DNA from: an uncultured Flammeovirgaceae bacterium
Lineage (GTDB): Bacteria > Bacteroidota > Bacteroidia > Cytophagales > Cyclobacteriaceae
DNA length: 10,406 bases
Reading direction: 5' to 3'
NCBI GenBank assembly: GCA_946886805.1
Contig: CAMPJM010000106.1
Span: 1-10,406, forward strand
The position numbers and the translations under genes were made by a program. Under the pieces are notes generated by a model that saw only the letters and a list, made by a program, of their open reading frames with translations, was not told the DNA's origin and did no database searches. Positions 816-9,305 of this stretch are shown in pieces; the stretch's first letter is position 1; the number at the start of each line of letters is the position of its first letter.

Positions 816-1949
816 ATGAAAAGAATTAACATGATAGAATCGAGTACGACTATACCAAGTGTGGACATTCTGACAACTAAAAAGCATTTTACGGTTCTTG
901 ATGGGCTAAGGGGCGTTGCAGCCTTTGGGATAGTTATTTTTCATTTTATGGAGTGGACTTTTACGGACATTACCAAAAATTTTATTGGCCATGGCTTTTT
1001 AGCTGTGGACTTCTTTTTCTGTCTTTCGGGATTCGTGATAGGATACGCTTATGATGACCGGATTGGAAAAATTGGCATTCTAGAATTTTTTAAATCCAGG
1101 TTAATAAGACTGCATCCATTAGTTATTTTAGGTTCTATATTAGGATTAATAGCTTTTATTTTCGATCCTTTTGCCAGCTATTGGTCGTCATATTCCGCAA
1201 GCGATCTTGCAAAAATGTTTCTTTGTTCCGCTTTTCTTATCCCCTATCCAGTGGTAGAAGAGCGTGCATTTAACTTGTTCAGTCTCAATGCTCCATCCTG
1301 GACGTTGTTTTGGGAATATATGGCTAACATCTTCTATGCTGTCGTTCTTATAAGAATTAGCCGCTATAGCCTGTATATATTAGCCGTATTTGCTGCTGTA
1401 GTGCTTGCTTATGTGAGCTATAGCGCAGGAAATTTATTGGGCGGATGGGATGTTAACACTTTTTGGCATGGTGGCGCACGTATTTTATACTCCTTCGTAG
1501 CGGGCTTAGTTATTTATAGATCCAATTGGATTATTAGAAATAATATTGGTTTTATTGGCTTGAGTATATTGTTGTCCTTGGCTTTGTTAATGCCATTTTT
1601 CAGTTGGAATTGGCTGGCAGAGCTGATTGTGGTAATGCTTTATTTTCCCTTGATAGTTTCGCTCGGAGCAGGAACCACCGTGTCCCCGCGATTGAATAAG
1701 CTATGCAAATTTTCCGGTAATATATCGTATCCGCTGTACATGACCCACTACGCTGTCATATGGATCTTTGGAAACTACTATGTTATTAATAAACCGGACA
1801 CCGCTACCCTCACGATGCTTGTTGTTATTGGATCATTTTTACTGGTGGGAGTTGCACACCTGGTTATGGTATTTTATGACATACCCTTGCGAAAATATTT
1901 ACATAATAAGCGAATTTCAAGTAGGACTGAATTCCGAAAGAGAGAGTAG
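816..1949 (+). CDS. Acyltransferase family 3 membrane protein (OafA/YrhL type)
   Basis: A predicted integral membrane O-acyltransferase of 377 aa, the usual length for a stand-alone Acyl_transf_3 protein. The N-terminus has the family signature: LDGLRGVAAFGIVIFHF with Arg32 and His43 (the conserved R-x10-H pattern, His being the likely catalytic residue), then DFFFCLSGFVIG (65-76) and FFKSRLIRLHPL (91-102). About ten hydrophobic segments follow, ending in a basic cytoplasmic-like tail. Members transfer acetyl or other acyl groups to surface polysaccharides, O-antigen, peptidoglycan or small molecules. The substrate cannot be told here because no glycan biosynthesis genes are adjacent. ATG 816 is preceded by AGGGAGA about 13 bp upstream, which is rather far; ATG 831 is an alternative that loses only five residues. 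It may share transcription with the next gene, but 134 bp separate them. Confidence 0.9.
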   Translation: MKRINMIESSTTIPSVDILTTKKHFTVLDGLRGVAAFGIVIFHFMEWTFTDITKNFIGHGFLAVDFFFCLSGFVIGYAYDDRIGKIGILEFFKSRLIRLHPLVILGSILGLIAFIFDPFASYWSSYSASDLAKMFLCSAFLIPYPVVEERAFNLFSLNAPSWTLFWEYMANIFYAVVLIRISRYSLYILAVFAAVVLAYVSYSAGNLLGGWDVNTFWHGGARILYSFVAGLVIYRSNWIIRNNIGFIGLSILLSLALLMPFFSWNWLAELIVVMLYFPLIVSLGAGTTVSPRLNKLCKFSGNISYPLYMTHYAVIWIFGNYYVINKPDTATLTMLVVIGSFLLVGVAHLVMVFYDIPLRKYLHNKRISSRTEFRKRE

Positions 1950-2083
1950 ACAAATTGCCCAATTTTACAAGCCCTAAAAGGCGATTTCCCTGGTGTTGAA
2001 GGGATGTGCATCGCCCGCATAAAAAGCATTTAAAAACTAAAATTTTATGCAATATTTTCATTTTCAATTTCTAACTTTGATCA

Positions 2084-3979
2084 ATGAAGCGTATTTACCA
2101 ACTTAGAATAGAACTCAGCGAGAGCAATCCGAAAGTCTGGCGCAGGATCCAGGTACCAGGTGACACATCATTTTCTGAACTTCATGATATCATCCAGCTT
2201 TCCATGGGTTGGGAGAATGATCACCTGTATGAGTTCACCGTAAAAAAAATCAGAGTTTATGATTTTCAAGATGTCTTTGATGACGGCTCAAACCCCTTGG
2301 AAAGGGACAGCATGGATACATTTCTGGACGATTTGGTGAAAAGAGTTAACACCAAATTCACCTATGTTTATGATTTTGGCGACAACTGGGAGCATGTAAT
2401 TCAGGTGGAAAAAATTCTGCCGGAAGAAGAAAACACAACCTATCCAGTTTGCCTTGAGGGCGAGCGTGCATGCCCACAGGAAGATTGCGGAGGTATCTGG
2501 CGTTATCAAAATATCCTCAGAATCTTGGATGATAAGGACGATCCGGAATACGATGAAATTACTGAATGGGTCGGTGAAGATTGGGATCCTGATATTTTTG
2601 ATTGTGACCAGACTAACGCCCGTTTGCAAAATTATGCGGAACAGTGGGAAGATATTTACAAGGAAACCGAGGAATTGATTGATGGTTTAGAAGGGGAAGA
2701 TTCGGAGTTTGACGATCTGGATGATGATTTTTATGGCGCAGATGAAGATAATGACGCTTACAGCTATGATGACTTAAAGAAGTTCTCCACTCCGGAAGAT
2801 GTGCTCCGCAACGAATATGAGCGTTCAAGCATGGAGGAATGGATAGAAGATGCACTGGAGGAAGAGGGAGAAATAGAAAATGACACCTACCAGCGGTTAC
2901 GCGATTCTGGCCACGATGACCAGAGAGCTAAAGATCTGATTCTGCAAGCATTATCCATAGAATATTTTTACGATCTGAAATTTGGAACCGACCACCTGAA
3001 TGATCGTTATGAGTACAACCTCCAACGCCTTCCCGAGACCCCGCAGGAAATACCCAGGCTGAAAGATGCATTGGATATACTTAGTAATTGTGTGAAAGGT
3101 ATCCCTTTTTCAGCCATAGAATACTTGCAAAACGACTCATCAGAAGAGGCTACTTCAGAAATCATAGACGAACTGAGAAACCATTCCGATCATCAGTACT
3201 GCTGGGAAGATTGCACCTTCGCCCCTTTTTGGTTTTCGCTTGCCGCAGAAGGCCACCTCTGCGAAGCCTTGATTGATCCTGTGATCCAGTTATACGAGGA
3301 AAATCCAAATGAAACGGACTGGCTGTTTGAACAGGGACAGTATCTGATTGGGAAACTGGCTCAGAGGTACCCGGACCTGACGGCACAGAAGTTACTGGAT
3401 GCGATGGAAAAGGATGCTGCAAAAAATACAAAAACCAGTATATTTTACCTGTTTGACGCCTTCTACTTTTGTGATCCTGCGCAATACAAGTCACGTTTGC
3501 TTGCACTTCTCGAACGTGACGACCTTTCATGGTTTGAACCGCTGGCTGCCACTGTCGCTAATCTGCACATCGCAGAAGCACTTCCTGTATTGGAAAGAAA
3601 ATTAGAAAAACTGCAGGCAAAGCCAGAGAAAGATCTAAGGCGCCATAGGTCTCTTATAGAAGTAGAGGAAGCAATTCAAATCCTTAAGGGCGAGATAGTA
3701 CTTGATCCGGACACTGTAATGCCTCTCAGTCTGACACGTGAAATATCCTGGCAAGAGGAAGTCAAACGAAAGGAAAAAGATTTTTATGAAAACGAAGGCC
3801 GCGGCGATGATTTCAGATTTCAGAATCTTCTTGATCAGTTTCCTGCAAGGTCAAAGGAACGGCCGCTATTTTCGACCATGAAACCCTATGTTAAAGAAGA
3901 AAAACCTGGACGAAATGAACCTTGCCATTGTGGAAGTGGCAAGAAATATAAAAAATGTTGTATGGATAAAGACGGGTAG
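2084..3979 (+). CDS. PRiA4b ORF3-like domain protein with C-terminal SEC-C zinc motif
   Basis: A soluble protein of 631 aa in three parts. Residues 1 to about 180 match the PRiA4b ORF-3-like family (also named IS1096 TnpR passenger family): PKVWRRIQVPGDTSFSELHD (16-35), MGWENDHLYEF (41-51), YVYDFGDNWEH (94-104), and CLEGERACPQEDCGG (123-137) followed by a WDPDIFD segment. A very acidic linker follows (about 190-230). The central 270-600 region is helical and HEAT-like by eye and may relate to DUF1186-type proteins, which is a weak assignment. The C-terminus is a SEC-C motif, PCHCGSGKKYKKCC, with Cys614, Cys616, Cys625 and Cys626 placed to bind zinc as in the SecA tail. The function of the PRiA4b domain is not established. 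The gene stands alone between the acyltransferase and the repeat cluster. ATG 2084 is supported because the domain begins within a few residues of it. Confidence 0.9.
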   Translation: MKRIYQLRIELSESNPKVWRRIQVPGDTSFSELHDIIQLSMGWENDHLYEFTVKKIRVYDFQDVFDDGSNPLERDSMDTFLDDLVKRVNTKFTYVYDFGDNWEHVIQVEKILPEEENTTYPVCLEGERACPQEDCGGIWRYQNILRILDDKDDPEYDEITEWVGEDWDPDIFDCDQTNARLQNYAEQWEDIYKETEELIDGLEGEDSEFDDLDDDFYGADEDNDAYSYDDLKKFSTPEDVLRNEYERSSMEEWIEDALEEEGEIENDTYQRLRDSGHDDQRAKDLILQALSIEYFYDLKFGTDHLNDRYEYNLQRLPETPQEIPRLKDALDILSNCVKGIPFSAIEYLQNDSSEEATSEIIDELRNHSDHQYCWEDCTFAPFWFSLAAEGHLCEALIDPVIQLYEENPNETDWLFEQGQYLIGKLAQRYPDLTAQKLLDAMEKDAAKNTKTSIFYLFDAFYFCDPAQYKSRLLALLERDDLSWFEPLAATVANLHIAEALPVLERKLEKLQAKPEKDLRRHRSLIEVEEAIQILKGEIVLDPDTVMPLSLTREISWQEEVKRKEKDFYENEGRGDDFRFQNLLDQFPARSKERPLFSTMKPYVKEEKPGRNEPCHCGSGKKYKKCCMDKDG

Positions 3980-4030
3980 TGCATCGCAGCGGGGAAAGAA
4001 TTTTCTAGGATAGTTATGTAATAATGATAG

Positions 4031-4052
4031 CGAACCTATGGGGGAATGACGA
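4031..4052. repeat. Short end fragment of the dispersed repeat
   Basis: CGAACCTATGGGGGAATGACGA joins the AACCTATGGGG block of the repeat directly to its end motif GGAATGACGA; the usual intervening sequence of about 50 bp is missing. The same AACCTATGGGG occurs at 657-667, where copy 2 breaks off. It lies 51 bp after the SEC-C gene and 14 bp before the next repeat copy. Confidence 0.65.
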
Positions 4053-4066
4053 GTACTTTTTCATTA

Positions 4067-4324
4067 TCGTCATTCCTTACGCAGCGTAGCGGAGATCCGA
4101 GACCGGCGAAAAGGAATCCCCTCAAACAGGGACGTAATAGTAATCGCTAGCAGAAATTTAAGCTTTCCTTTGGCTGAATGCTTCAACTCCTCATCAATAA
4201 GTTCACTGCTAACCTATGGATTCCGGCCTTCCAGTCTCGGATATTTACTCCTCTTTGCTCCATAAATTCCGCGCCACCCCGAAGTTATCCCTATGGGAAA
4301 GACATCCCTATGGGGGAATGACGG
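4067..4324. repeat. Dispersed foldback repeat, copy 3, with internal extra sequence
   Basis: Starts TCGTCATTCC (4067-4076) and ends GGAATGACGG (4315-4324). The left block GATCCGAGACCGGCGAAAAG, with GGAATCCCC after it, is nearly identical to copy 2, and the right block TTCACTGCTAACCTATGGAT is shared with copies 1 and 2. GATCCGAGACCGG on the left and CCGG...TCTCGGATA on the right are inverted, so the element can fold back. Near the right end there is extra sequence containing ATCCCTATGGG twice (4287-4297 and 4304-4314). The amidoligase start is 88 bp downstream, so its promoter probably lies between the repeat and the gene or inside the repeat. Confidence 0.78.
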
Positions 4325-4412
4325 TCACATTTTAAGGGGGTCCTAACTCTAGGGGCCGAAAGCTCATCCATAATTTAGGAAACCTCTTTTTGTTTTTCAG
4401 GTTGAATAGAGG

Positions 4413-5423
4413 ATGACATTTAATTATCCTCCCATATTAAACACCAAAGACGGCTCGGTCAGACGAGTCGGATTTGAGATCGAATTTGCCGAAGTAAGTC
4501 TTGATCAGGTTGCTAATTCTATAATAGGGCTTTATGGGGGCTCAATACAAGTATATAATAAATTTTATCAAAAAATTACCAATACATCTCTGGGTGATTT
4601 TTCCTTGCAGATTGATGCACGGGTACTTACAGAAAAATCATATGAAAAGATATGGAATAAGGCCGGCTTAAGACCTGAAGAATTAACCTCGAGAAGAAGA
4701 AATATAAACAAAAATCTTGAAAATACCCTCGATTCAATTGCCTCTTTAGTAGTGCCTTATGAAATAAGCACTCCCCCTGTCCCAATAGATGAACTGCCCA
4801 GATTGGAACCGCTGCGGAATGCCCTTTTCCAAATAAAAGCGAAAGGTACCTCCTCCTCATTTTTATATGCATTTGCTACTCATATTAATCCTGAACTTCC
4901 CGTTTGTGATACAAAAACTATTTTGTCTTATACGCGTGCATTTTTGCTTTTATACCATTGGCTATCTGAAAAATCAGCGGTAAATATTACTAGGAAACTA
5001 ACTGCTTTTATAAATCCCTTTCCCGACGAATATTTTTCTTTGGTGCTTGATCAAAACTATAACCCGACATTTGAGAAGTTTGCCAACGACTATTATTTCT
5101 TCAATCCGGACAGAAATAGGCCATTGGATTTATATCCGGTTTTGGCATTTATAGACAAAGATAAAGTAGATACATTTAATGATTTGGGTAAAGTCAGCGC
5201 AAGGCCCACATTGCATTACAGAGTCCCAAATAGTTTGATTGATGACCCTACATGGTCTCTTGCAAAGGAGTGGAATTTGTGGGTAATGGTAGAGCAGTTG
5301 GCGAATTCTCCTACTGATATTGAAAATTTAAGCAGGGAATATTTAATGTTAAGAAAAGATACCGTGATCCGTTTTAAAAGGAAATGGATAAACAAAATTG
5401 AAACCTGGATGGATGCCAAATAA
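4413..5423 (+). CDS. Amidoligase family protein (glutamine-synthetase-like fold)
   Basis: A predicted ATP-dependent amide-bond-forming enzyme of 336 aa from the amidoligase family (Amidoligase_2 type, COOH-NH2 ligase superfamily). RRVGFEIEF (17-25) opens the fold, with Glu22 and Glu24 as the expected metal/ATP ligands. SLGDFSLQIDARVL (59-72) matches the second strand pair. YEISTPPVPIDELPRL (116-131) corresponds to the E-x-(V/S)-(S/T)-P-P motif, and YAFATHINPELP (152-163) to the conserved His-containing strand. No signal peptide or membrane segment is seen. Family members are predicted to ligate an amino acid or amine to a carboxylate and are known from comparative genomics to sit beside glutamine-amidotransferase-like genes, as here. 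The acceptor and donor are unknown. ATG 4413 is forced because an in-frame TAG lies two codons upstream. The purine-rich AGAGG touches the ATG, too close for a normal ribosome binding site. The gene overlaps the next by 11 bp. Confidence 0.9.
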   Translation: MTFNYPPILNTKDGSVRRVGFEIEFAEVSLDQVANSIIGLYGGSIQVYNKFYQKITNTSLGDFSLQIDARVLTEKSYEKIWNKAGLRPEELTSRRRNINKNLENTLDSIASLVVPYEISTPPVPIDELPRLEPLRNALFQIKAKGTSSSFLYAFATHINPELPVCDTKTILSYTRAFLLLYHWLSEKSAVNITRKLTAFINPFPDEYFSLVLDQNYNPTFEKFANDYYFFNPDRNRPLDLYPVLAFIDKDKVDTFNDLGKVSARPTLHYRVPNSLIDDPTWSLAKEWNLWVMVEQLANSPTDIENLSREYLMLRKDTVIRFKRKWINKIETWMDAK

Positions 5424-6249
5424 TAAAAAACCACGTATTGGAGTAACAGGGCCCGACAAAGGAGGAAATGCGGCGTGGATTTTTACAGGATTGTCCATAT
5501 TTCTTGCAGGCGGAATCCCTGTCAGGGTAAGGCCTTCAAACCCGAAATCTATTGACAAACTTCAGGGTTTGGTTATAGGAGGTGGAGCTGATATTGATCC
5601 TGAAGCCTATGAAAATGAAAATTTTTTCGACTCTTATTTGAAGGAAACTTTACAAAATAAGAAAAGGAGCTTTAAAAGTAGGATCAAAAGCTTTATTAAA
5701 TTTCTGATATACCCTATAATATTCCTCATAAGGAAAATACTAAGTCGCAAAGGTAAATTCCTTGATAAGGAAAGAGACGTCTTAGAATTTAGTCTGGTAA
5801 ATCAGGCGGTAGTCAAAGAACTGCCTTTGTTGGGGATCTGTAGGGGTGCCCAGCTCCTAAATGTGTATTTCAAGGGAGATTTGTATGATGATATTAGCTC
5901 ATTTTATCAGGAAGAGTCAATAAGAGAAAGCATATTTCCTGTGAAAAAAGTTTTTTTGAAGTCAAGAAGCAAATTAGCCAGATTAATAGGAGTCGACGAG
6001 CTATATGTAAATGCACTTCATCATCAGGCTGTAAAACAAGTTGGAGAAGGTATTGAGGTTGTTGCTGAGGAGCCTAACGGCGTGGTTCAGGCTATAGAAT
6101 CGTCTCAACATAATTTTATTATAGGTGTTCAATGGCATCCTGAATACCTTATAACAAAATCTATTCACAGAAAAATATTTCGAGGACTTATCCAAAACGC
6201 TAAAACACCGGGTGCTTTGGCTACATTTGCTTCCGCACCAAATAATTAA
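5413..6249 (+). CDS. Class I glutamine amidotransferase, gamma-glutamyl-GABA hydrolase (PuuD) type, with basic/hydrophobic insertion
   Basis: A predicted gamma-glutamyl hydrolase or amidotransferase of the Peptidase_C26/PuuD group, 278 aa from ATG 5413. It shows PRIGVTGP (7-14), GLVIGGGADIDPEAY (52-66), the nucleophile elbow LLGICRGAQLLN with Cys143, the substrate motif NALHHQAV (200-207), and IIGVQWHPEYL with His242 and Glu244 completing the Cys-His-Glu triad. Between DPEAY and the helix DKERDVLEFSL there is an extra segment of about 45 residues (71-116) with twelve Lys/Arg in 83-115 and a hydrophobic centre FIKFLIYPIIFLI (94-106). This looks like an amphipathic or membrane-contacting helix. 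A TTG at 5398 in the same frame would add five residues; ATG 5413 is preferred because MPNNKKPRIGVTG starts directly at the fold. Overlap with the amidoligase (11 bp, different frame) implies coupled translation and a shared role. Hydrolysing a gamma-glutamyl product or feeding ammonia are both possible. Confidence 0.9.
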   Translation: MPNNKKPRIGVTGPDKGGNAAWIFTGLSIFLAGGIPVRVRPSNPKSIDKLQGLVIGGGADIDPEAYENENFFDSYLKETLQNKKRSFKSRIKSFIKFLIYPIIFLIRKILSRKGKFLDKERDVLEFSLVNQAVVKELPLLGICRGAQLLNVYFKGDLYDDISSFYQEESIRESIFPVKKVFLKSRSKLARLIGVDELYVNALHHQAVKQVGEGIEVVAEEPNGVVQAIESSQHNFIIGVQWHPEYLITKSIHRKIFRGLIQNAKTPGALATFASAPNN

Positions 6250-6303
6250 TGCGGCTTTACAAATTGAGGATTAATAATTCTCATTTCATAAAGCCGCATT
6301 TTT
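6248..6303 (+). terminator. Rho-independent terminator after the amidoligase operon
   Basis: Perfect 12-bp arms AATGCGGCTTTA (6248-6259) and TAAAGCCGCATT (6289-6300) are followed by a T run that ends at 6303. The loop can itself pair (TGAGGATT with AATTCTCA), giving one long hairpin. The stem begins inside the stop codon of the amidotransferase gene. The T run favours + strand termination. On the - strand the hairpin lies downstream of the OmpA gene, but its T tract there is poor, so two-way action is possible but unproven. Confidence 0.85.
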
Positions 6304-6342: not shown

Positions 6343-8667
6343 TTATTTAAAGATAACTTCTAACTCAACCCTTCTGTTCGCTTTTCTTCCCTCTTTCGTT
6401 GCATTATCCGCCACGGGATGGTCTGGCCCCAATCCCTCTACTATAAATCTTTCTTCGCCAAGTCCCTGAGCAATAAGGAAATCAGCAACAGCTTGCGCCC
6501 TTTCCTTTGACAATCTCACGTTGGTAGTTCTATTGCCAACATTGTCAGTATGCCCTACAATATGCAGTTTCCAATCGGGTTTCAACTTTAGTAAATTGGC
6601 CAATTCGACCATAGAAGTATAAGATGACAAAGCGATTTTAGCTTTGCCAGACTCAAATTCCAGATTGGTAAATGCTGTGTTCAAAATCTCTTGCTCTTCC
6701 TCCTTTATTTCAGGACAACCCTTATTTTCAACAACGCCCGGAATTAATACACATTCATCGTTAAGGTCTATTACACCGTCTCCATCTGAATCTGTGTAAG
6801 GGCAACCAAGATTTTCGGTTGGCCCGGAAAGCTCAGGACATTTATCTTCATTATCAAAAATACCATCACCGTCACTATCAGGACAACCATTTTTAGCTAC
6901 CGATCCAGGAAGGTCAGGACATAAATCCTCGCTATCAATTACAGTATCGCCATCTTTATCAGGGCAGCCTTGATGTTCTAAAGTTCCAGCTACATCCGGA
7001 CATGAATCTTCGCTGTCCTGGATTCCATCGCCGTCTGTATCGGGACAGCCTTTGAAACCTGCCAGACCTGCTACTTCGGGACATAGATCGTCTTTATCTA
7101 TGATACCATCGGCATCCGCATCCGGACAGCCTTGCAATTCAATTAGCCCGGGAACATCTGCACAAGCATCTTCGCTGTCCTGTACCCCATCAGCATCACG
7201 ATCAGGGCATCCTTTGAATTCCCAAACACCTGGCACTTTTCGACAAACATCTTTTCTATTGGATACTCCGTCTTTATCCTTATCTCTCTTCTTATGATAA
7301 GGCAATCCAAATCTCGCTGCTACATGGAAATCAAAGCTTTTAGGATCTTTACCAAAAGCGAAATTGCTTAGGACATCACGAGAACCAAGAACAATATTAC
7401 CTATTCTCAAAGAAACCCCTGAATTAAGATTTGCGAATTTATCGTACGACACAGGTAGTGCTAATCCGAAGGTTTTTCCTTCTATTCTCGGGGTTAAAGC
7501 CAAGGTACTTATATACCTACTCTTCTCTTTATCAGAAGCACCTCCCCGTAATGCAAGTTGTGAGGTAAGGTTCAGGTAAAACCCTCCGGCAACATGATAA
7601 TCCAATTCTCCTAAAAGTCTGGTAGGAAGGCCCATTTTGTAAGAACCACCTCTTTTGAAATCGAAATACTCTTCAAAAATTTCGTCTATATCGCCCTCTA
7701 ATTCATTAATATCCAGATCGTCTAAATTTCCAGTAATTCGACCACTTTCGTTATTTCTATTGTATTTTATCCCTCCAATATCTAAAATTGAGAAGCCAAC
7801 CTTAAGTTTATATTTATTTTTATCCCTTCTGATCAGGCTGTCTTTCCCATCCATTTCATATCTGTATTTTTCAATATTGGGCCTGTATTCATAAACAACA
7901 CCCAAATCTAATCCCAAGCCTAAATTTTGGAAGGGCTTATAATCAAATTCCTCATCCTCGATCGATATATTATCAGAAAAGCCAGTCTCAACATCAATGT
8001 TTGCTACCTCAACTCTATCATCAGTAAGTCCTGAGAATCGCAGATCGGAAATATAAGTATATCCTGATGCGAATCCGGTCAACAATTTAACAGTTCCACC
8101 TACCTTTAGAAATTTCGTACCCTTATCAAATACTACCCTTCCGTAGGTGAGGCCGAGTTCTCCCCATGCATGAGTTTGAACATACATATTGCTCAAATCA
8201 AAAGAATCATTAGGGTCAATTACGAACTCATCTTCCTCAGATATTTTATCCAACAAATCTGCCGATGCAGCACTGAAGCCATCAAAGTTGCTCACTGCCC
8301 GCATCCTTAAGGTAATCGCCATGGCGTGTTTTGGGCTTAAGGTCAGCATAAAAGAAAGAGGCGCATAACTATCTGTAGATAAATACCCGCCCTTGTCACT
8401 TCCATTGGTATTTCGGATAAACCTATCAGATTCGAAATCAAATTTCTTGAAATCTGCTGCGGGAATAGCATAGTAATTATTGCTAAAATAGGAACTAACC
8501 CCTATAATGTTCATTTGGAATTTATACCGGCTATCTACTATAGACGCAGGTTGAAAGCTTATACCCTGAACACCTGCATAGTTACTGGAATGTAGTCCCA
8601 GCCAATCCTGCGCAGCCAGATCATTCAAAGTGATAAGACATACAATCAATAAGTAAATTTTTTTCAT
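6343..8667 (-). CDS. OmpA-family outer-membrane protein with DUF5723-like domain and thrombospondin type 3 repeats
   Basis: A 774-aa envelope protein. Residues 1-19 form a signal peptide (MKKIYLLIVCLITLNDLAA, probable cleavage before Gln20). Residues about 20-455 are rich in beta-strand-like alternation and resemble the Bacteroidota DUF5723 group (LHSSNYAGVQGISFQPASI near the start), probably an outer-membrane barrel; this name is from memory and less sure. Residues 462-652 hold seven thrombospondin type 3 calcium-binding repeats. Residues about 655-774 are an OmpA C-terminal domain: GHTDNVGNR with Asp708 and LSKERA with Arg723, the pair that binds diaminopimelate in peptidoglycan, and NRRVELEVIF at the end. 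The protein should therefore connect the outer membrane to the cell wall. It is transcribed alone, divergent from yraN and convergent with the amidoligase operon. ATG 8667 is fixed by the signal peptide. Confidence 0.92.
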   Translation of the reverse strand: MKKIYLLIVCLITLNDLAAQDWLGLHSSNYAGVQGISFQPASIVDSRYKFQMNIIGVSSYFSNNYYAIPAADFKKFDFESDRFIRNTNGSDKGGYLSTDSYAPLSFMLTLSPKHAMAITLRMRAVSNFDGFSAASADLLDKISEEDEFVIDPNDSFDLSNMYVQTHAWGELGLTYGRVVFDKGTKFLKVGGTVKLLTGFASGYTYISDLRFSGLTDDRVEVANIDVETGFSDNISIEDEEFDYKPFQNLGLGLDLGVVYEYRPNIEKYRYEMDGKDSLIRRDKNKYKLKVGFSILDIGGIKYNRNNESGRITGNLDDLDINELEGDIDEIFEEYFDFKRGGSYKMGLPTRLLGELDYHVAGGFYLNLTSQLALRGGASDKEKSRYISTLALTPRIEGKTFGLALPVSYDKFANLNSGVSLRIGNIVLGSRDVLSNFAFGKDPKSFDFHVAARFGLPYHKKRDKDKDGVSNRKDVCRKVPGVWEFKGCPDRDADGVQDSEDACADVPGLIELQGCPDADADGIIDKDDLCPEVAGLAGFKGCPDTDGDGIQDSEDSCPDVAGTLEHQGCPDKDGDTVIDSEDLCPDLPGSVAKNGCPDSDGDGIFDNEDKCPELSGPTENLGCPYTDSDGDGVIDLNDECVLIPGVVENKGCPEIKEEEQEILNTAFTNLEFESGKAKIALSSYTSMVELANLLKLKPDWKLHIVGHTDNVGNRTTNVRLSKERAQAVADFLIAQGLGEERFIVEGLGPDHPVADNATKEGRKANRRVELEVIFK
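6712..7284 (-). repeat. Seven thrombospondin type 3 repeats coded within the OmpA-family gene
   Basis: An in-frame array coding for units of about 27 residues with the pattern D-x-D-x-D-G ... D ... D-x-C ... P/A-G ... G-C-P. The first unit begins DKDKDGVSN and lacks a preceding Cys-Pro. The fifth reads DKDGDTVID, with Thr where the loop Gly is usual. The sixth-to-seventh junction has CPYTDSDGDG with extra residues. Such arrays bind calcium and form a rigid spacer between the barrel and the peptidoglycan-binding domain. Confidence 0.88.
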
Positions 8668-8813
8668 CTAAAACGCTTATATTAACAATTTTTTAAGTTA
8701 AAATATTCGAGTGCTGGCTTTGGGGAAAATGCATCTCTTCTTCTATAATAAGGAGCAGTCAATGGTCACTCCAAATTTTTTCTTTCTTAGTATCAGTGTT
8801 TGTTCTAAAAGAG

Positions 8814-8833
8814 AATTATAATTTATTATAATT
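8814..8833. promoter_or_regulatory. AT-only 20-bp palindrome between divergent genes, possible operator
   Basis: AATTATAAT, TT, ATTATAATT: perfect 9-bp arms with a 2-bp spacer, lying between the divergent OmpA-family and yraN starts (147 bp from the first, 122 bp from the second). It could be a dimeric-regulator site. An AT-only palindrome in AT-rich DNA can also arise by chance, and I found no convincing TTTG / TAnnTTTG promoter pair beside it on either strand. Confidence 0.3.
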
Positions 8834-8954
8834 GTACAAATATCAATTTTACCTTTTCAAAGGACTTCGAATAATTCTTGGCAATATCACATTATTCTAT
8901 TTTCTTTTTTTGTGATTATATTATTAAAGAATACAATGTAATTTTTCAGAAAAA

Positions 8955-9305
8955 ATGGCAGCCAATAAAATAACAGGGGATCGTGGGGAACAAATTGCCG
9001 TCGATTATATTCAGAAAAAGGGGTACGAGGTTCTAAAGAGAAACTATAGGTATAAAAGAGCGGAAATTGATATCATCGCCAAAGCAAACAATTTGTTAGT
9101 CTTTTTTGAGGTAAAAACCAGGTATGGTCTTCACTTTGGATATCCGGAAGAAGCTGTAGATGAAAAGAAGGCCGAAATGGTTATTATGGCGGCTAATAAT
9201 TTTATCTATGAAACAGAGTGGGAATCTGAAATAAGATTTGATATAATTGCGGTTTCTTTAGATCAGGAGTTAAAAATCGATCATTTTGAAGATGCTTTTT
9301 TTTGA
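8955..9305 (+). CDS. yraN: YraN/UPF0102 family nuclease-like protein
   Basis: A 116-aa protein of the UPF0102 (YraN) family, full length for the group. It has GDRGEQIAVDYIQKKGYEVL (8-27), RNYRYKRAEIDIIA with Glu37 and Asp39, VFFEVKTRYG with Glu52 and Lys54, the FGYPEEAV segment, and RFDIIAVS near the end. Asp39 followed by Glu52-Val-Lys54 is the restriction-endonuclease-like PD-(D/E)xK arrangement. The family is widespread, its cellular role is poorly defined, and DNA metabolism is inferred from the fold. ATG 8955 is two codons before the conserved start region; the upstream purines (AGAAAAA) are a weak ribosome site. The gene ends in a run of eight T that codes for the last Phe residues, and its stop codon abuts the stop of the convergent hydrolase gene. 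Confidence 0.93.
   Translation: MAANKITGDRGEQIAVDYIQKKGYEVLKRNYRYKRAEIDIIAKANNLLVFFEVKTRYGLHFGYPEEAVDEKKAEMVIMAANNFIYETEWESEIRFDIIAVSLDQELKIDHFEDAFF

Follow-up and report, generated by a model that had tools for sequence, protein, structure and literature searches.

An amidoligase gene and its PuuD/SpuA-like partner form a conserved pair in Bacteroidota, with a possible gamma-glutamyl function at the membrane face

Gene organization of the locus

We analysed a stretch of 10,406 nucleotides from an uncultured Flammeovirgaceae bacterium (contig CAMPJM010000106.1, assembly GCA_946886805.1), hereafter the window, in which an Amidoligase_2 gene is followed on the forward strand by a gene for a class I amidotransferase-family hydrolase (Table 1). 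The second open reading frame (ORF) is open from a TTG at 5398, and its likely start is the ATG at 5413, from which 278 amino acids (aa) are encoded up to 6249. With this start the frames overlap by 11 bp, as a first-pass annotation made from the letters alone had claimed. The strong terminator that it placed behind the pair is also there: the hairpin has a z-score of -7.3 and none of 200 shuffled sequences was equally stable. A simple terminator scan missed it because that scan permits loops of 3-8 nt only. In agreement with the same annotation, a Pfam scan of the five other large ORFs of the window revealed no ATP-grasp, carrier or transporter domain. No Rfam match at the gathering threshold and no tRNA were found in the window, and no PADLOC model fits the amidoligase or its partner.

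Table 1. Features of the gene pair and of the remainder of the window (GS, glutamine synthetase)
Feature	Positions	Strand	Remarks
Amidoligase_2 (PF12224), predicted GS-fold carboxylate-amine ligase	4413..5423	+	336 aa
PuuD/SpuA-like class I amidotransferase-family hydrolase (Peptidase_C26)	5413..6249	+	278 aa
Overlap of both reading frames	5413..5423	+	11 bp, from the sequence
GhExE motif, Glu22 and Glu24	4476..4484	+	predicted strand 18-26; E in 114/115 homologues, gap in 1 row
HxN motif, His157 and Asn159	4881..4889	+	predicted strand 156-161
Clade-specific insertion region of the partner, residues 71-118	5623..5766	+	net charge +10
Insertion helix, residues 87-110	5671-5742	+	24 residues, low-confidence model
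Codon of catalytic Cys143	5839..5841	+	118/119 aligned homologues, gap in the other row
Codons of catalytic His242 and Glu244	6136..6144	+	each in 118/119 homologues, gap in the other row
Intrinsic terminator hairpin, then short T run	6248..6300	+	folding -24.9 kcal/mol
Acyltransferase ORF	816-1949		Pfam scan of window ORFs
PRiA4_ORF3/SEC-C protein ORF	2084-3979		631 aa
DUF5723/OmpA protein ORF	6343-8667		convergent with the pair
UPF0102 and esterase-like ORFs			after the DUF5723/OmpA gene

The amidoligase and its partner

The first protein matches PF12224 at 193.2 bits (cut-off 22) over profile positions 3-245 of 245, and carries the GFEIEF, YEISTPP and ATHINPEL motifs from which an amidoligase had been proposed. 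The residues G20, F21, E22, I23 and E24 correspond to the GhExE motif on core strand 1, defined for the carboxylate-amine ligase superfamily in the passages of Iyer, Burroughs and Aravind (2008, PMC2588565) on these enzymes, and G20, E22 and E24 are invariant in A1 and A3. By precedent in the superfamily, Glu22 and Glu24 would form the metal/ATP site. D68 and E117 are each found in 114 of 115 homologues, with one gap; the former lies just past the predicted strand 63-67 and the latter within 116-119. The HxN position (H in 95 and Q in 20 of the 115 homologues, N in all of them) fits the [HDQ]x[NH] pattern of core strand 4, and the segment H268-Y-R270-V-P-N273 looks like a blend of Ex[RK]x2D and [QH]x4D, its placement on strand 6 being made by eye. 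The predicted structure supports a GS fold, and Glu22, Glu24 and His157, which the annotation had assigned to a GS-like active site, fall on its predicted strands (Table 1). The profile was also compared with those of six glutamine synthetases, and since the probability obtained was 0.1% the link to GS rests on the predicted fold and the motifs. A sequence search of the PDB with the amidoligase profile returned nothing at E up to 1. In Rufibacter roseus (L056) the amidoligase frame is split in two in the assembly, at about 8001-9004.

The partner matches PF07722 (Peptidase_C26) at 144.6 bits (cut-off 20.5), and its Cys-His-Glu triad is intact, as first described. Its nearest solved structures are of the PuuD/SpuA type. 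The protein scores 73.1 against the NCBIfam PuuD equivalog (gamma-glutamyl-GABA hydrolase; cut-off 266) and 46.9 against the gamma-glutamyl-CDP-amidate hydrolase (cut-off 250), below both cut-offs. Its structural model is mediocre, with a mean predicted local distance difference test score of 72.6; the other four models scored 47-57.

Conservation of the gene pair

A profile generated from 26 amidoligases detected 130 relatives in GTDB genomes, and the best 80 of these 130 constitute the 80 loci of our study. The partner is directly downstream and on the same strand in 78 of them, which bears out the adjacency that the annotation had offered as a check of its proposal. In the two exceptions (L026 and L032) the partner is located elsewhere in the genome, with no amidoligase in the 3.8 kb around it. 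An independent draw of 296 Bacteroidota genomes contained 28 matches to PF12224, 27 of them full-length, and the partner adjoins in 26 of the 27. A search of the same genomes with the partner profile revealed 26 genomes with at least 278 bits, the next best reaching 123 bits. All 26 are among the 27 genomes with a full-length amidoligase, and none of the 269 other genomes has the partner (Fisher p 1.9e-36, uncorrected for kinship). Among 274 gammaproteobacterial genomes, 18 PF12224 matches were found in 17, with the partner beside 15.

A wider set comprised 128 records, in 127 of which the profile detected an amidoligase; they fall into 61 sequence groups at 65% identity. Some of its loci repeat genomes of the 80 (for example L146 and L034), an overlap lessened by the use of sequence groups and the removal of identical rows. 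In 117 of the 127 loci and 54 of the 61 groups, a member of a single partner cluster lies downstream in the same direction. Ten loci are outside this cluster: no partner was found there in L026, L032, L131, L132, L133, L135, L161 and L176, and in L054 and L167 it was recognized by profile. Under a nearest-start rule, which favours short distances, the second frame has a start ahead of the first frame's end in 98 of 119 homologous pairs; starts in the ORF table are the first after a stop, hence distances taken from it are biased. On plasmids we found 11 matches and viewed seven loci, three with the partner gene and four with none; tblastn with four partner proteins gave no match at these four. 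These data show that the pairing is far beyond chance and that the two genes are a real unit, which is obligate in the sampled Bacteroidota.

An insertion in the partner and a third gene

About 40 extra residues are placed in the partner between the GGGADIDP loop and the helix preceding the catalytic Cys. The segment from loop to helix is 49-64 residues long in 82 of the 119 partners; the remaining 37 have 4-17 residues there. The insertion is basic: its 48 residues in the window protein have a net charge of +10, and its last 35 residues have a mean charge of +4.3, against +0.6 per 35 residues elsewhere. Aliphatic and aromatic residues are abundant in it, and a proline with a basic turn after it is frequent. 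On a partner tree built without these columns the insertion state changes once (support 93), indicating an old clade mark, and on the amidoligase tree the state of the partner changes three times; both trees are quick searches with long branches. The nearest row to the window proteins on either tree is Rhodocytophaga. Judged by the titles of the records, the organisms with the insertion include Bacteroidota, Balneolales, Bdellovibrionales, Desulfobacteraceae, Polyangiaceae and Acidobacteria, and L167, L173 and L174 of the gammaproteobacterial draw have it as well. In the clade that bears it, segment 68-115 of the amidoligase is longer as well (mean 43.7 vs 36.2 residues).

In insertion-free loci the next gene often encodes a small VTT-domain protein (assigned by Pfam for three), which was found in 24 loci of 12 sequence groups, always downstream and co-directional. 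It adjoins 24 of the 37 insertion-free partners and none of the 82 insertion-bearing ones. Two loci were misfiled in this count: L054, on a cut contig where part of the insertion is seen, as insertion-free, and L078, whose VTT domain is within a longer ORF, as VTT-free. With both moved, 83 partners have the insertion and no VTT gene, and VTT is present beside 25 of 36 insertion-free ones. We rejected the idea that this exclusion reflects many independent events, as the insertion state changes once on the partner tree. The contrast fits a hydrolase step at the membrane, achieved through the enzyme's own helix or through a partner protein, without proving it, and the basic hydrophobic helix may hold the hydrolase to the membrane.

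Other neighbouring genes

Several other neighbours were considered as components of the system and set back. A gamma-glutamyltranspeptidase gene is divergent and just upstream of the amidoligase in 13 of the 80 loci (L014, L016, L017, L020-L022, L024, L025, L027-L029, L031 and L032), in Pontibacter, Telluribacter and Botryobacter, with PF01019 identified in the representative L032. All 13 belong to one of the 61 groups, and the gene was not retained as a third component. Membrane proteins of the bPH_2 type were set back since they are confined to the Balneolales loci L044, L046, L050 and L053, where two of them follow the pair (Pfam for L050). The AI-2E transporter gene was also set back, being directly upstream in nine loci of one gammaproteobacterial group and at least 0.9 kb away in four loci elsewhere. 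An operon-like order of AI-2E transporter, amidoligase, glutamine amidotransferase-like (GATase) partner, VTT and YaeQ genes is seen in the gammaproteobacterial loci L057, L062, L064, L067, L068 and L072-L075; YaeQ and DUF1451 neighbours are found in gammaproteobacterial loci only. The DUF5723 protein encoded downstream of the pair in the window has TSP_3 repeats and an OmpA domain. Related genes cluster in 11 of 81 records and are convergent beside several Rufibacter pairs; they share no operon with the pair and were set back.

Genes of an amine-utilization kind were considered too. An aldehyde dehydrogenase-like ORF cluster, whose representative is the annotated gene of L130, is present in 7 of the 127 loci, which represent 5 of 61 groups. 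Its distance ranges from 0.15 to 4.7 kb, and in four loci (L130, L150, L140 and L145) it is no more than 1.5 kb from the amidoligase; as it is mostly not adjacent, it was set back as a sign of a Puu-type pathway. An ABC ATPase-like family was detected in 30 loci of 12 groups at mixed positions, 10 of its 33 ORFs being no more than 2.5 kb away. Because both families are large, we read these neighbours as background. L130, on plasmid pSC52_3 of Rhodobacteraceae SC52, has the aldehyde dehydrogenase gene 149 bp upstream, preceded by a gene for an amino acid ABC transporter substrate-binding protein, and is the one locus that resembles an amine-use pathway, reminiscent of the Puu type. The Pfam scan found no Puu-type oxidase or aldehyde dehydrogenase gene in the window.

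The protein encoded at 2084-3979 has an N-terminal PRiA4_ORF3 domain, a long acidic middle part and a C-terminal SEC-C motif, and its PADLOC matches come from the C-terminal end alone. A dispersed intergenic repeat occurs in several imperfect copies within positions 1-680 and about 4010-4340 of the window, with ends GGAATGACG and CGTCATTCC and internal inverted arms. The copies 503-631 and 4057-4185 agree at 74%, and further copies are at 14-67, 435-488 and 4218-4271. These copies bracket the gene pair at 816-3979; they have the look of a miniature inverted-repeat transposable element and no Rfam match.

Proposed reaction and alternative explanations

We tentatively propose, with a confidence approaching but not reaching an even chance, that the two enzymes are a dedicated gamma-glutamyl on/off pair, with the hydrolase acting at the membrane face. 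In an ATP-dependent reaction the GS-fold amidoligase would activate a carboxylate, of which the gamma-carboxylate of glutamate is the likeliest, and couple it to an amine; the PuuD-like Cys hydrolase would afterwards free the gamma-glutamyl moiety. Within the window protein's own clade the basic hydrophobic helix of the hydrolase may rest in or on the inner membrane, with release at the membrane face, and our best guess for the amine is a membrane-linked or polycationic one. The first-pass annotation had suggested that one enzyme makes a gamma-glutamyl or related amide and the other cleaves or feeds it; the pairing on which this was built stands, and between the two roles of the partner, cleavage is favoured here over feeding in a conditional way.

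The preference for cleavage draws on phages. A more distant amidoligase has relatives in 101 phage records, and among six phage regions viewed, three have an AIG2/GGACT gamma-glutamyl cyclotransferase as the next gene or one small gene away and one has a class II GATase; a GATase_6 gene is also found near the amidoligase of L162. Ten pattern matches on viral contigs included no relative by tblastn. The folds of class I, class II and AIG2 enzymes are unrelated, and the activity that would best fit all three partner kinds is gamma-glutamyl removal. If such partner exchange is a guide to the chemistry, the on/off reading is placed above ammonia feeding, because ammonia supply ill suits a cyclotransferase.

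Several observations weigh against this proposal. A ligase and a hydrolase acting on one bond in one cytoplasm would make a futile cycle unless kept apart in space or time, and the tight overlap and obligate pairing are also expected of a glutaminase-synthetase complex. The partner exchange in phages concerns distant subfamilies: tblastn with the window amidoligase found no match in 50,697 phage records, and two of the six regions lack a partner domain among the neighbours tested (two in L223, four in L224). Amidoligases with no neighbouring partner exist, namely at four of the seven plasmid loci viewed and in L161 and L176. As to the membrane, the insertion does not exceed the remainder of the protein in hydrophobicity (mean best 15-residue Kyte-Doolittle value 1.46 vs 1.49), helix 87-110 has no significant hydrophobic moment (as high a value is reached by 6.9% of shuffles), and the insertion/VTT pattern counts as one contrast because it follows a single split on the tree.

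A serious rival, which we nevertheless regard as unlikely, is that the C26 protein acts as a glutaminase and delivers ammonia to the amidoligase, which would convert a substrate carboxylate to a carboxamide. The fixed order, the overlap and the obligate 1:1 pairing are in keeping with a stoichiometric complex, ammonia is a substrate of GS itself, GatB and GatE are assigned to the superfamily of the amidoligase in the relevant passages of PMC2588565, and class I and class II amidotransferases both fit ammonia donors; the phage cyclotransferase is the partner that does not. More doubtful still is the synthesis of a glutathione-like gamma-glutamyl or other non-ribosomal peptide, trimmed or recycled by the thiol hydrolase and joined by the gamma-glutamyltransferase in some Pontibacter relatives. 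Peptide synthesis is predicted in the family descriptions of PMC2588565, and the divergent transpeptidase in 13 of 80 loci agrees with it, but these loci are a single sequence group, no dedicated biosynthetic gene stands beside the pair across groups, and the ABC ATPase-like genes are scattered as expected of a large paralogous family. We hold it very unlikely that the pair performs a reversible Pup/Dop-like tagging of proteins or envelope, in which a glutamate or peptide tail would be attached by the ligase and taken off again by the thiol peptidase. PafA belongs to the same ligase superfamily according to PMC2588565 (passages on the superfamily), the thiol enzyme is in a peptidase-annotated family and the membrane-linked features would agree; against this, no conserved small tag-like ORF is beside the pair among ORFs of at least 70 aa (a shorter tag could escape), and the passages of PMC2588565 on the amidoligase family report none.

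The insertion could have a different role under any of these reactions. It may be a docking arm for the amidoligase or an active-site lid, with no membrane anchor, a real possibility although we lean against it. Its position after the GGGADIDP loop and ahead of the helix that precedes the catalytic Cys, the longer amidoligase segment 68-115 in the same clade and the low confidence with which it is modelled speak for such an arm or lid, and its strong positive charge, its clustered aliphatic and aromatic residues and the VTT membrane gene often found beside insertion-free relatives speak for the membrane instead.

Returning to the on/off pair at the membrane, a more specific and quite improbable version would be a membrane-surface gamma-glutamyl shuttle. 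In it a soluble ligase would cap the amine as a gamma-glutamyl amide and the hydrolase would uncap it at the bilayer. One clade would anchor the hydrolase to the inner membrane through a basic helix, in-plane or re-entrant, and the other would couple it to a VTT (DedA-type) membrane protein. If true, Bacteroidota and several other phyla would possess a lipid, envelope component or polycation with a gamma-glutamyl link that has so far gone unrecognised. Confirmation of the on/off pair at the membrane would give a family spread across several phyla both a reaction and a location, with lipid or polyamine extracts as the place to seek the product. The obligate pair, the cleaving partner exchanged in phages and the clade-wide insertion pointing to the membrane offer a precise test.

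Comparison with known systems

The pairing itself is not new and has been in print since 2008. We take the ligase family of that study to be the Amidoligase_2 family of Pfam. Neighbourhoods of Amidoligase_2 genes with a GATase-like thiol peptidase were described, for a predicted enzyme family, by Iyer, Burroughs and Aravind (PMC2588565), whose passages on the family already name GATase-like and AIG2-family partners; the first-pass annotation was thus right that comparative genomics had linked such genes. By this description the ligase family, the kind of neighbour and the adjacent co-directional arrangement are the same as in the window pair. Their account of the pair concerns proteobacteria; the main text never uses the word Bacteroidetes, and the passages on the amidoligase family mention no insertion and no VTT gene (PMC2588565). 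In the open literature searched, subscription papers being outside its scope, we found neither the insertion nor the VTT neighbour described. Nor did these searches turn up any mention of the near-perfect co-occurrence across genomes or of a membrane-based interpretation, or a product reported for the amidoligase family.

PuuA and PuuD (and SpuA) are likewise a GS-like gamma-glutamyl ligase and a gamma-glutamyl hydrolase of the class I amidotransferase fold. In contrast to PuuA/PuuD, the window pair has no adjacent oxidase, dehydrogenase or transporter genes, its ligase is of another family and its hydrolase has the insertion. EgtA and EgtC of ergothioneine synthesis, a gamma-glutamylcysteine synthase and a glutamine amidohydrolase, also place a ligase and a hydrolase in one pathway; EgtC, which removes the gamma-glutamyl group, has the class II amidotransferase fold. 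They differ from the window pair in their other operon genes and their known product. Besides PuuA/PuuD, a precedent is provided by GlnA4 of Streptomyces with a gamma-glutamylglycine amidohydrolase, the latter step being inferred in the portions of PMC9397018 that deal with it.

The phage systems have a ligase of the same Pfam family near a gamma-glutamyl cyclotransferase or a class II GATase; their partners are of other Pfam families than that of the window, and their ligases are too distant to be found by tblastn with the window amidoligase. GatB and GatE, which act with amidases, and MurT-GatD likewise combine a ligase with an amidohydrolase, which in these systems provides the ammonia. GatB and GatE share the superfamily of the window amidoligase in the classification given in PMC2588565 (superfamily passages).
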